A DNA stretch of 64,000 bases from Leptospiraceae bacterium (GTDB lineage: Bacteria > Spirochaetota > Leptospiria > Leptospirales > Leptonemataceae), in the NCBI GenBank assembly GCA_026418015.1, contig JAOACE010000011.1, forward strand, positions 1 through 64,000. Reading direction: 5' to 3'. This document shows positions 37,744 through 42,230 of the stretch, piece after piece. Position numbers and translations under genes: made by a program. Numbering within the stretch: the first letter of the stretch is position 1; every line of letters begins with the position of its first letter. The notes beneath the pieces are model-generated. The model was not told where the DNA came from, made no database searches, and saw nothing but the letters and a program-made list of their open reading frames with translations.

Positions 37744-37885
37744 AAAAAATTATAGAAGCTCATCATTATGAATTTAAGATTACAAAAATATTTAAATTCG
37801 ATAAAAAATACTTGCATAATTTTAAAATTAGATTATCTTGGAATTATCACATCATTTATGTTTAACACATACTCGAGGTTTTACC

Positions 37886-39748
37886 ATGCAACAAGAAAAA
37901 CAATCCTCAGCCTCCATTAAGAAGTTGAGTCAACAAATTGATAATGTAACAATAAGATTTTCGGGAGATTCTGGTGATGGAATGCAGTTGGCAGGAAGTC
38001 AATTTACCTTAGCAACAGGTTATTTAGGAAACGATTTAATGACATTCCCCGATTTTCCAGCAGAAATTCGAGCACCCCAAAATACTGTACCTGGTGTATC
38101 GAGCTTTCAAATTCATTTTGGTAACACTAAAATTTTTACACCGGGTGATCTGGTCGATGTATTAGTAGCAATGAATCCAGCTGCTCTTAAAGCAAACATT
38201 AATTTTTTAAAACAGAATGGTATCCTCATTGCAAACTCAGACGAATTTAATGAACGAAATTTAATTAAAGTTGGATATCAGTCTAATCCCTTACATGATG
38301 AAAATTTAAAACAAAAATATAGAATTATAGAAGTGCCCATTTCTACATTAACAAAAAATGCATTAAAAGATACAGGACTTTCTGCACGAGAAATCGAACG
38401 TTGTAAAAACTTTTTTACGTTAGGGATTACTTATTGGCTCTTTCAAAGAGATCCTCAACCAACAATTAATTGGCTTAAAAAAGCTTTTGCAAACAAACCT
38501 CATTTAGCAGATGCAAACATAAAAGCATTGATGGCTGGTCACGCTTATGCAGAAACTGTCGAAGCCTTCGAAACCAGATACGAAGTAAAAAAAGCTATAT
38601 TTCCCCCGGGTATATACAGAAATATTAACGGTAATACTGCATTAGCATTAGGTATCGTCTCTGCAGCAATTCTGTCTAAATTAAAAGTACTCTATGCAGG
38701 TTATCCTATTACACCAGCTTCCGATATACTACACGAATTGGTAAAGTTTAAACACTGCAATGTATATACGTTCCAAGCAGAAGACGAAATTGCTGCAATT
38801 GGTGCTGCTATCGGTGCCTCTTATGGTGGTTCTATTGGTATTACTGGTTCTTCTGGACCTGGTATATCTTTAAAAACAGAAGCAGTGAATTTAGCTGTAA
38901 TGGCAGAATTACCTGTTGTCATTATCAACGTACAAAGAAGTGGACCTTCTACTGGTATGCCAACAAAAACAGAACAAGCTGATCTTTTACAAGCAATGTT
39001 TGGCAGAAATGGAGAAAGTCCAGTTCCCATCCTTGCACCAGCGACACCAGCAGATAATTTCCAGTTGATTTTCGATGCTATAAAAATAGCTGTTAAATAC
39101 ATGACCCCTGTATTTTTTCTTTCTGATGGTTATTTAGCTAATGGTTCTGAACCATGGAAATTACCTAACATAGAAGATTTAGAATTCAATGTTCCCAAAC
39201 CTATACTAAACGAAAAAATAGAAAATTATAAAATCTACGGAAGAGATCCAGAAACACTTGCAAGAAAATGGGTAGTTCCAGGAAATCCTTATCATATGCA
39301 TCGAATTGGTGGGTTAGAGAAAAACGAAAACGGAAATATTAGTTACGATCCAGATAACCACGATAAAATGGTTCGATTAAGAAGCGAAAAAATCCAACGC
39401 GTTGTTCAAGACATTCCTGATTTAGAAGTTTTTGGTTCTAACGAAGGAAATTTATTAGTAGTAAGTTGGGGTTCTACTTTTGGAGCAGTAAGAGAATCCG
39501 TAGAAAGATTGTATAGAGAAGGATATTCCATAGGCCATGTTCATTTAAGATATATTAATCCATTCCCAAAAAATCTAGAAAAAATCTTAAAATCGTTTAA
39601 AAAAATCATCGTCCCAGAAATCAATTTAGGGCAGTTGGTATTTTTGTTAAGAGCAAAATATTTGGTACCAGCGGAACCTTACAATCAAGTTCGCGGTAGA
39701 CCATTTACAACATCCGAATTAATCGAAGCATTCAAAAAACATTTATAA
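37886..39748 (+). CDS. korA: 2-oxoacid:ferredoxin oxidoreductase, alpha (gamma-alpha fusion)
   Basis: 620 residues. The first 190 or so form the gamma domain (RFSGDSGDGMQLAGSQF and PAEIRAP) and the rest is the alpha (pyrimidine-binding) domain with AGYPITPASDILHE and INVQRSGPSTGMPTKTEQAD. This fusion is typical of KorA, which oxidises 2-oxoglutarate with ferredoxin, or works in the carboxylating direction. The ATG at 37886 (GAGGT upstream) is preferred to a start 48 bases earlier. KorB follows after 22 bases. No ferredoxin-type subunit is encoded here. Confidence 0.93.
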   Translation: MQQEKQSSASIKKLSQQIDNVTIRFSGDSGDGMQLAGSQFTLATGYLGNDLMTFPDFPAEIRAPQNTVPGVSSFQIHFGNTKIFTPGDLVDVLVAMNPAALKANINFLKQNGILIANSDEFNERNLIKVGYQSNPLHDENLKQKYRIIEVPISTLTKNALKDTGLSAREIERCKNFFTLGITYWLFQRDPQPTINWLKKAFANKPHLADANIKALMAGHAYAETVEAFETRYEVKKAIFPPGIYRNINGNTALALGIVSAAILSKLKVLYAGYPITPASDILHELVKFKHCNVYTFQAEDEIAAIGAAIGASYGGSIGITGSSGPGISLKTEAVNLAVMAELPVVIINVQRSGPSTGMPTKTEQADLLQAMFGRNGESPVPILAPATPADNFQLIFDAIKIAVKYMTPVFFLSDGYLANGSEPWKLPNIEDLEFNVPKPILNEKIENYKIYGRDPETLARKWVVPGNPYHMHRIGGLEKNENGNISYDPDNHDKMVRLRSEKIQRVVQDIPDLEVFGSNEGNLLVVSWGSTFGAVRESVERLYREGYSIGHVHLRYINPFPKNLEKILKSFKKIIVPEINLGQLVFLLRAKYLVPAEPYNQVRGRPFTTSELIEAFKKHL

Positions 39749-39770
39749 TAAGAATTAGGAGTGAATTTAT

Positions 39771-40769
39771 ATGAGTACTACATTAACAAAAAAAGATTAT
39801 GCATCAGAGGTAGAAATACGTTGGTGTCCAGGTTGTGGTGATTATGCTATCATCAATGCAATACAAAAAGCATTAGCAGATGTACAAGCTCCAAGAGAGA
39901 AAACTGTTTTTATTTCTGGTATAGGTTGTTCTTCTCGATTTCCTTATTACATGAATACTTATGGTTTTCATACCATTCATGGTAGAGCACCAGCAATTGC
40001 GACAGGACTAAAACTTACCAGACCAGATTTAGAGGTATGGATCATCACAGGAGATGGAGATGCATTATCTATTGGTGGAAATCACTTCATTCATTTATTA
40101 AGACGAAACATTAATGTAAAGATTGTTTTATTCAACAATCAAATCTATGGTTTAACAAAAGGACAATATTCTCCAACATCAAAAGTTGGGACAAAATCCA
40201 AAACTACCCCAGAAGGTTCTATCGATGAACCATTTGATCCAATCCGATTAGCTTTTGGTGCTAATGCATCATTTATTGCTAGAACTTTCGATAAAGATAT
40301 TCCTCATATGGAAAGTGTATTTAAAGCAGCTCACGAACACAAAGGAACTGCATTCATAGAAGTATTCCAAAATTGTGTGATTTTTAACGATGGTGTTTAC
40401 AACGAAATAACCGAAAAACAAAATCGAGTAGAAAGAGCCATTTACATAGAAAATAACAAAAAGATGTTATTCGGAAAAGATAACGAAAAGGGCTTAAAAT
40501 TAGACAATAATCAGCTTAAAGTTGTATCCGCAGTAGATCAGCCAGAAGAAGTATCTATTTTCCAAGAAAACGATGAAAATTTTATAATACAATTTATAAA
40601 AAATCATAACAATCCATCTATTCCTATTCCTGCGGGCATATTATATAGGAACAACCGTCCCATTTTCGAAGAAACATACGAGCAACTCGTAGAAAAAAAT
40701 CGCAAAGAAAAAGGCGAACCAGACCTTTATAAAATCTTGTACTCTGGAGAAATATGGGAGATTAAATAA
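39771..40769 (+). CDS. korB: 2-oxoacid:ferredoxin oxidoreductase, beta subunit
   Basis: 332-residue thiamine-diphosphate-binding subunit. It has WCPGCGDYAIIN (Fe-S/TPP region), GIGCSSRFPYYMNTYG, and the TPP motif ITGDGDALSIGGNH with LFNNQIYGLTKGQYSPTS, all typical of KorB. The Cys residues at the start are expected to ligate the iron-sulphur cluster together with a later Cys. Strong RBS (TAGGAGTG). Partner of the preceding korA. Confidence 0.94.
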   Translation: MSTTLTKKDYASEVEIRWCPGCGDYAIINAIQKALADVQAPREKTVFISGIGCSSRFPYYMNTYGFHTIHGRAPAIATGLKLTRPDLEVWIITGDGDALSIGGNHFIHLLRRNINVKIVLFNNQIYGLTKGQYSPTSKVGTKSKTTPEGSIDEPFDPIRLAFGANASFIARTFDKDIPHMESVFKAAHEHKGTAFIEVFQNCVIFNDGVYNEITEKQNRVERAIYIENNKKMLFGKDNEKGLKLDNNQLKVVSAVDQPEEVSIFQENDENFIIQFIKNHNNPSIPIPAGILYRNNRPIFEETYEQLVEKNRKEKGEPDLYKILYSGEIWEIK

Positions 40770-40879: not shown

Positions 40880-41305
40880 ATGGAAGATCCTCTTGGTATT
40901 CACTATATAATCGAGTTATATGGCTGTAAACCAGCGATATTGGATGACCTTCAAAAAATCGAAGATACACTCAACTACTCAGCCGATCTGGCAGGAGCAA
41001 CGATAATATCAAGCAAATTCCACAAATTCTCTCCACAAGGTGTTTCTGGAGTTATCGTTATTGCAGAGTCGCATCTTAGTATTCATACTTGGCCAGAATT
41101 GGGTTATGCTGCATTAGATCTCTATACCTGCAACATCAACATGGATATCGATAAAGCTCTTGATTACATTCAAGTTGTATTTAAACCAGAAGAAATGATC
41201 GTAAAATACTTAGAAAGAGGTGTTATGGATCCAGCAAAAAGGCGTTTTCTAAAAGTAAAAGATTACGAACCTAACGAGGCATTTATCACAGGAGGAAAAA
41301 AATGA
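40880..41305 (+). CDS. speD: S-adenosylmethionine decarboxylase proenzyme
   Basis: 141-residue class 1B SpeD. Ser64 in AESHLSIHTWPE is the self-cleavage and pyruvoyl site, His69 and Cys84 (LYTC) complete the active site. It makes decarboxylated SAM for spermidine synthesis. AGGAGG at 40866-40871 suits the ATG at 40880; a nearer out-of-frame ATG at 40876 leads to a short unrelated frame. No spermidine synthase gene lies in the window. It is coupled (four-base overlap) to the SET/SpeD-like fusion gene. Confidence 0.95.
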   Translation: MEDPLGIHYIIELYGCKPAILDDLQKIEDTLNYSADLAGATIISSKFHKFSPQGVSGVIVIAESHLSIHTWPELGYAALDLYTCNINMDIDKALDYIQVVFKPEEMIVKYLERGVMDPAKRRFLKVKDYEPNEAFITGGKK

Positions 41306-42204
41306 TCGAACTAAAAGAGAAGAATTCTTTAATTCATAATTTTTCTATCGAAGTGGATAATTCGAGCATTCATGGAAAAGGTGTATTTGCAAAAGAATCG
41401 ATTAAAAAAGGATCATTGATTGGAGTTCTTACAGGTAAATTCTACCAAAAGAAGGAGTTAAATTCTATACAAGAAGAATTTAAAAGATATTTGTTCCCCA
41501 TCGAGGATTCATTGTTCATTGGTCCAGAATCTTTTTATAATATACCTCCTCTCTTTTATTTGAATCACTCTTGTGAACCTAATGCAGGTATAGATGGAGA
41601 TTTAGCAATCGTAGCTATTAATGATATTTTACCTGGAGAAGAAATTACCATCGATTATGCAACAATGTTTCTTAACGATGAACGACTTATCTGTCAATGT
41701 AAGTCTTCTAATTGTAGAAAATCTATCCATGGTACAGATATCTTAATGCCAGAATTACAAAAGAAATATAGTAACAATATTTCCAACTGGATTAGAAGAA
41801 TATTGGAAATAAAACCTCAGGATATAGCAAGTAAATTGCATTTTGAACAAACAGGGGCATGGGGTTTAGTTACAGCTCTCGATTTACATGATTGTGATCC
41901 AGATATTATCAGGGACCGTGATGCAATTTATCAGTATACAATACAACTCTGCGAAAAAATCAAAGTAAAACGATTTGGTGAACCTATTATCGTTCATTTT
42001 GGAGAAGACGAAAGAGTTGCTGGTTATTCTTTGGTTCAGCTTATAGAAACATCGTTAGTATCTGGACACTTCGCGAATCTTACGAATAGAGTATATTTGG
42101 ATATTTTTAGTTGTGCCTATTACAATCCCACAGAGGTAATTGAATTTTCTAAGAATTTCTTTAAAGCACAAGACTACAATTGTAAAATCTATTTAAGACA
42201 TTAG
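41302..42204 (+). CDS. SET-domain methyltransferase fused to a SpeD-like domain
   Basis: 300 residues with two recognisable parts. Residues about 12-145 are a SET lysine-methyltransferase domain: SIHGKGVFA, FYLNHSCEPNAG, GEEITIDYA and a post-SET CQCKSSNC zinc-type cluster. Residues about 175-300 read like a second AdoMet decarboxylase: GAWGLVTALDLHDCDP resembles the SpeD first strand, and ETSLVSGHF...DIFSC lines up with ESHLSIHTW...LYTC of the neighbour. Ser251, His256 and Cys271 match its pyruvoyl Ser, His and Cys, while the Glu before Ser is Thr. AGGAGG precedes the ATG. It could be a lysine methylase with a SAM-sensing or regulatory domain for speD. The fusion is seen directly; the function is inference. 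Confidence 0.82.
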   Translation: MIELKEKNSLIHNFSIEVDNSSIHGKGVFAKESIKKGSLIGVLTGKFYQKKELNSIQEEFKRYLFPIEDSLFIGPESFYNIPPLFYLNHSCEPNAGIDGDLAIVAINDILPGEEITIDYATMFLNDERLICQCKSSNCRKSIHGTDILMPELQKKYSNNISNWIRRILEIKPQDIASKLHFEQTGAWGLVTALDLHDCDPDIIRDRDAIYQYTIQLCEKIKVKRFGEPIIVHFGEDERVAGYSLVQLIETSLVSGHFANLTNRVYLDIFSCAYYNPTEVIEFSKNFFKAQDYNCKIYLRH

Positions 42205-42208
42205 AAGT

Positions 42209-42230
42209 ACGCCCTTTGGGGCGTTTTTTC
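42209..42230 (+). terminator. Rho-independent terminator of the speD operon
   Basis: Stem ACGCCC-TTTG-GGGCGT followed by TTTTTTC, five bases after the stop codon of the SET/SpeD-like gene. Confidence 0.9.

Follow-up and report, generated by a model that had tools for sequence, protein, structure and literature searches.

Organization of the speD locus

The window analyzed here is a 64,000-nucleotide stretch of contig JAOACE010000011.1 from a Leptospiraceae genome of 2.9 Mb, assembled in 28 contigs and 97.9% complete. Among named records, the nearest matches are to Leptospiraceae bacterium KatS3mg129, at 81% identity, and to other Leptospiraceae and Leptospirales MAGs. The window contains speD, followed directly by a gene whose product joins a SET domain to a SpeD-related domain, arranged as follows.

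40880..41305, + strand: speD, encoding a class 1b AdoMet decarboxylase proenzyme with the cleavage site AESHLSIHTWPE
41302..42204, + strand: SET-SpeDC fusion gene (300 aa), from the ORF, Pfam, the AlphaFold model and its recurrence in the order
41347..41730, + strand: SET and post-SET, residues ~16-143, from Pfam SET, the PDB match to MLL1, fold and motifs
41731..41847, + strand: linker with short helices, residues ~144-182, from the secondary structure in the model
41848..42201, + strand: SpeDC domain, residues ~183-300, from hallmark residues, tree and fold
42209..42224, + strand: terminator-like hairpin common to speD and the fusion gene, a stem-loop followed by a T run

The start of the fusion ORF sits within the speD stop, and the sequence AGGAGG is present closely 5′ of it. 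There is no hairpin between the two genes and a single terminator-like hairpin 3′ of the fusion gene; the 4-bp overlap and the common terminator described in an earlier note on this DNA are both confirmed in the window. No Rfam match to a riboswitch was found 5′ of speD. The region directly 5′ of speD (window positions 37838-40769) contains two genes resembling 2-oxoacid:ferredoxin oxidoreductase subunits (clusters c3 and c4), a pair that adjoins speD upstream in most genomes of the same family.

The fusion of a SET domain to a SpeD-like domain, which was the central claim of the earlier note, is borne out by three types of evidence. First, both halves have Pfam matches far above gathering: SET at residues 25-119 (E = 8.4e-16) and AdoMet_dc at residues 193-299 (E = 1.4e-19). 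Second, the AlphaFold model of the fusion (pLDDT 88.7) has clear fold matches for each half, as described below. Third, the same domain arrangement is seen in 18 of the 30 Leptospirales genomes examined and is therefore not an artefact of assembly or chance.

Distribution of the SET-SpeDC fusion

Fifteen of the 18 fusions are in the window's family and three are in a sister family (one of these is interrupted by a contig end), and no further examples were found elsewhere among 393 genomes of the phylum. Wherever the flanks of a fusion locus were read, speD was upstream of the fusion gene, and within the window's family the two either overlap by 4 bp or are separated by a gap of a few bases; the linkage to speD, for which the earlier note had proposed a test in relatives, is thus conserved across related genomes. 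In other spirochaetes a close homologue (~60% identity) is unfused and is found in the order speD-speDC-speE (cluster c2 being SpeE), and unfused SpeDC is also present in two genomes of the sister-family genus g15. A literature search, limited to open-access papers, turned up no SET-SpeDC fusion. The novel part is the SET domain, SpeDC and a SpeD-SpeDC fusion having already been published.

Several other features were noted in these and related genomes. In the sister family a conserved ORF of 83-102 aa separates speD from (SET-)speDC and overlaps or abuts its neighbors (L046:7609-7893, L047:7895-8203, L049:7887-8153 and L053:5236-5487, all + strand); it carries a DTFLGT...GLAGS motif, and has no NCBIfam match (three members scanned) or Pfam match (one scanned). 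Genus g15 also encodes a degenerate SpeDC-like paralogue (L059:7287-7676, L060:7352-7750 and L062:1195-1617, all - strand) with conserved neighbors c50/c51, in which the processing Ser is kept, the catalytic His and Cys are gone, and the branch is very long (3.4). Divergent AdoMet_dc proteins in frames of 274-313 aa are present elsewhere in the class (L160 in G030:C64, G031:C20, G032:C1 and G033:C2), with the AdoMet_dc match in two pieces in three of these four genomes.

The C-terminal domain is a member of the SpeDC family

SpeD gave rise to both arginine (SpeDA) and ornithine (SpeDC) decarboxylases, SpeDC being a pyruvoyl-dependent L-ornithine decarboxylase, and the Spirochaetota are rich in such SpeD-derived homologues (Li et al. 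2023, PMC10407285). Several features place the C-terminal half of the fusion within SpeDC. First, the product of the neighboring speD matches PF02675 (2.5e-40) and scores 138 bits with TIGR03330, the AdoMetDC equivalog model, against a cut-off of 75.65; the C-terminal domain of the fusion fails that cut-off with 23 bits. Second, when 33 SpeD and 40 SpeDC-type domains are aligned, Ser251, His256 and Cys271 have a spacing (+5, +20) identical to that in the neighboring SpeD, upholding the view of the earlier note that they are counterparts of the SpeD residues, and Thr250 occupies the position of the SpeD Glu, such that the site is Thr-Ser instead of Glu-Ser. Third, Q246, T250, F257, Y265 and Y274 are each invariant or 95% conserved in the 40 SpeDC-type domains, and the 33 SpeD domains have other consensus residues in these columns. 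Four diagnostic residues, Gln, Thr, Phe and Tyr, are described for SpeDC (PMC10407285), and all four types appear to be present in the fusion, if the columns are assigned by order and exclusivity (with Tyr corresponding to either Y265 or Y274). Finally, SpeD and SpeDC are split in the tree with 100/100 support, with every fusion domain inside SpeDC and the window speD grouped with SpeD, also at 100/100. The fusion domains share a clade with Desulfotignum-type SpeD-SpeDC domains, and the SpeD-SpeDC protein of the congener D. phosphitoxidans has been assayed as an ornithine decarboxylase (PMC10407285). The Thr at the cleavage site, which had seemed an odd loss of Glu, is instead a trait of the SpeDC family according to the alignment, the tree and the TIGR03330 score, and the puzzle that it posed is explained through published work.

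By sequence the SpeDC domain alone has no convincing match among solved structures and a comparison of folds was therefore needed. Residues 181-300 of the model match Thermotoga maritima AdoMetDC (1vr7) with a Z of 16.7 and an rmsd of 1.7 Å over 112 residues, and the structural match to the SpeD fold on which the earlier note had made its reading depend is thus found. This fold and the retained Ser, His and Cys would equally suit that reading, in which the C-terminal half is an unusual AdoMet decarboxylase or a regulator or sensor of decarboxylated SAM. However, the SpeDC hallmarks and the position in the tree led us to reject both forms of it, a proper speD lies next door, and no other source of putrescine was found, and we regard this explanation as quite improbable. 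With the assignment to SpeDC the basis is gone for decarboxylated-SAM sensing and also for the statement that both halves use SAM, as the C-terminal half most likely decarboxylates ornithine, judging from its family and the genome context. Self-processing is predicted to occur between Thr250 and Ser251 and to yield a pyruvoyl group.

Other routes to putrescine and spermidine

The substrate is uncertain from family membership alone, because one phage arginine decarboxylase is placed inside the SpeDC clade (PMC10407285); in our own searches no phage homologues were found at 1e-6. That phage enzyme is a precedent for a C-terminal half that decarboxylates arginine (a SpeDA) rather than ornithine, but four of four SpeDC residue types are present in the fusion, and neither agmatinase nor agmatine deiminase, through which agmatine could be used, was found in the window genome. 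We consider action on arginine very improbable.

Ornithine decarboxylation by SpeDC is also in keeping with the remaining gene content. The sole PLP-dependent Orn/Arg-type decarboxylase of the window genome is LysA (481 bits), nothing scores over the cut-off for OKR_DC, and a pyruvoyl arginine decarboxylase (ArgDC) was not found; SpeE is encoded on contig C17, unlinked to the speD-fusion locus. The genome contents thus fit a role for SpeDC as the putrescine supplier, though they are not proof of it. In a comparison of 25 genomes, agmatine-deiminase-family genes are missing from all 12 that carry the fusion and present in 7 of the other 13, a contrast that is suggestive only: its hypergeometric chance (~0.004) assumes independent genomes and these are related, and the two homologues that were checked singly score below the NCBIfam equivalog cut-off. 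Three genomes (G004, G005 and G010) have an OKR_DC-family enzyme in addition to the fusion.

The SET domain

The N-terminal half contains the SET and post-SET motifs HGKGVFA, NHSCEPN, GEEITIDY and CQCKSSNC. Its closest solved relatives are the MLL/SET1 lysine methyltransferases, both by sequence (MLL1 SET, E = 2.5e-12) and by fold, with residues 5-143 of the AlphaFold model matching MLL1 SET with a Z of 15.4 and an rmsd of 3.2 Å over 130 residues. GxG, NHSCxPN, DY and the post-SET CxC...C are intact in 14 of the 15 fusions of the window's family (the window and 13 others), with small changes around GxG in G002 (HKTG) and G003 (GKGIVT); the exception is G007, in which the SET motifs are partly degraded. 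SET evolves faster than SpeDC (the window and G003 share 69% identity in SET and 97% in SpeDC), and with a dN/dS of 0.01-0.13 it is under purifying selection in the window's family. Tandem pairs of SET genes also occur in family f3 of the same class (at L055, L056, L057 and L151), and one ORF in G015 (L061:5008-6096) holds two fused SET domains.

The sister family presents a different picture. The domain is still modelled as a SET fold (pLDDT 89.4, with a Z of about 10 against SET structures), but its catalytic and SAM-binding motifs have disappeared: all three fusions of this family (G022, G024 and G025) lack GxG, NHSC, the catalytic Tyr and post-SET. Together with the partial loss in G007, this indicates that methylation is dispensable for SpeDC in some genomes. 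The gene that follows speD in G006 encodes an unfused SET of 168 aa with intact motifs. This SET clusters with its fused counterparts in G005 and G019 (95/90), and the genome has a single AdoMet_dc gene; from this grouping and gene content, SpeDC has probably been lost and SET retained beside speD, the completeness of the G006 genome being 78%. That all fused SETs have a single origin is neither rejected (p-AU 0.35) nor shown, and we did not adopt two independent fusions in the window's family and the sister family, as the same value leaves a single origin standing.

The persistence of a SET fold lacking its motifs in the sister family (pLDDT about 90, Z about 10) raises the possibility that SET is non-catalytic in all members, acting as a SAM binder or a scaffold for SpeD and SpeDC that matches putrescine output to the supply of SAM. 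The partly degraded SET of G007 points the same way, and there is a precedent for a dead partner in prozyme, a dead paralogue that activates trypanosome AdoMetDC (PMC5201418). However, the catalytic motifs and post-SET cysteines are maintained in 14 of 15 same-family fusions within a domain that is otherwise largely variable, and G006 keeps an intact SET without SpeDC. We regard a non-catalytic SET throughout as a possibility, albeit a rather unlikely one.

SET might alternatively methylate one of the pathway's small molecules, whether ornithine, putrescine or methionine, to give a methylated amine. BurB, a SET-domain methionine S-methyltransferase that acts on free methionine (PMC12542666), also matches in the structural comparison (Z 13.1), and fusion to a putrescine-making enzyme is compatible with channelling. 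Nonetheless, the nearest relatives in both sequence and fold are MLL/SET1 histone-lysine methyltransferases with post-SET, the BurB sequence match is much weaker (5.7e-5), and no conserved neighbors pointing to a methylated-amine pathway were found; a small-molecule substrate therefore seems improbable.

Proposed role in spermidine synthesis

We propose that the fusion is a two-domain enzyme of the spermidine pathway, combining a SpeDC ornithine decarboxylase with a SET protein methyltransferase, and consider this scheme as a whole to be likely. The SpeDC domain would cleave itself at Thr250-Ser251, and with the resulting pyruvoyl group would convert L-ornithine to putrescine; the neighboring SpeD would convert SAM to decarboxylated SAM, and SpeE would join the two products to form spermidine. 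SET/post-SET, which shares a polypeptide with the first enzyme of the pathway, would act as a SAM-dependent methyltransferase, most likely on polyamine enzymes, the target being a lysine of SpeD, of the fusion itself or of SpeE, and SpeD is favored because SET stays beside speD when SpeDC is gone. The lysine-rich C-terminal tail of SpeD was considered as the substrate and set aside, as the tail varies among relatives. In the sister family, SET would have decayed to a non-catalytic structural or regulatory module.

Regulatory methylation of SpeD or SpeDC by SET has some indirect support from purifying selection, the intact motifs and the arrangement in G006. More tentatively, and with less than even probability, the built-in SET may methylate lysines of SpeD, SpeDC or SpeE such that SAM supply controls polyamine synthesis. 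We know of no case of this type of post-translational control of polyamine enzymes in any bacterium, and if SET does act on them it would represent a new form of bacterial metabolic control, coupling the use of SAM in methylation and in polyamine synthesis. The locus raises the question of why a lysine-methyltransferase-type domain should be wired into putrescine synthesis, and SET itself is a puzzle, being selected in one family, kept after the loss of SpeDC in G006, and present as a motif-less scaffold in the sister family.

Comparison with known systems

The C-terminal domain is similar to published SpeDC proteins in its fold, its Ser/His/Cys center and its Gln/Thr/Phe/Tyr hallmarks, and also in clustering with speD where other putrescine routes are absent; the SpeDC proteins described in that account (PMC10407285) are either free-standing or have SpeD as their fusion partner, whereas here there is an N-terminal SET/post-SET, and speE is unlinked. 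The SpeD-SpeDC protein of Desulfotignum phosphitoxidans likewise provides two polyamine decarboxylases from one locus (PMC10407285), and the C-terminal domain in a Desulfotignum MAG is 54% identical to that of the fusion. In D. phosphitoxidans, however, SpeD is the N-terminal partner (PMC10407285), whereas in the window that place is taken by SET and SpeD is encoded by a separate, overlapping ORF. BurB is similar in being a bacterial metabolic SET enzyme (PMC12542666), but it is unfused and more distant in both sequence and fold (Z 13.1 vs 15.4 for MLL1). The SET half shares its core motifs, post-SET cysteines and fold (Z about 15) with the MLL/SET1-type methyltransferases, but differs from these in lacking a chromatin context and in being joined to a metabolic decarboxylase.
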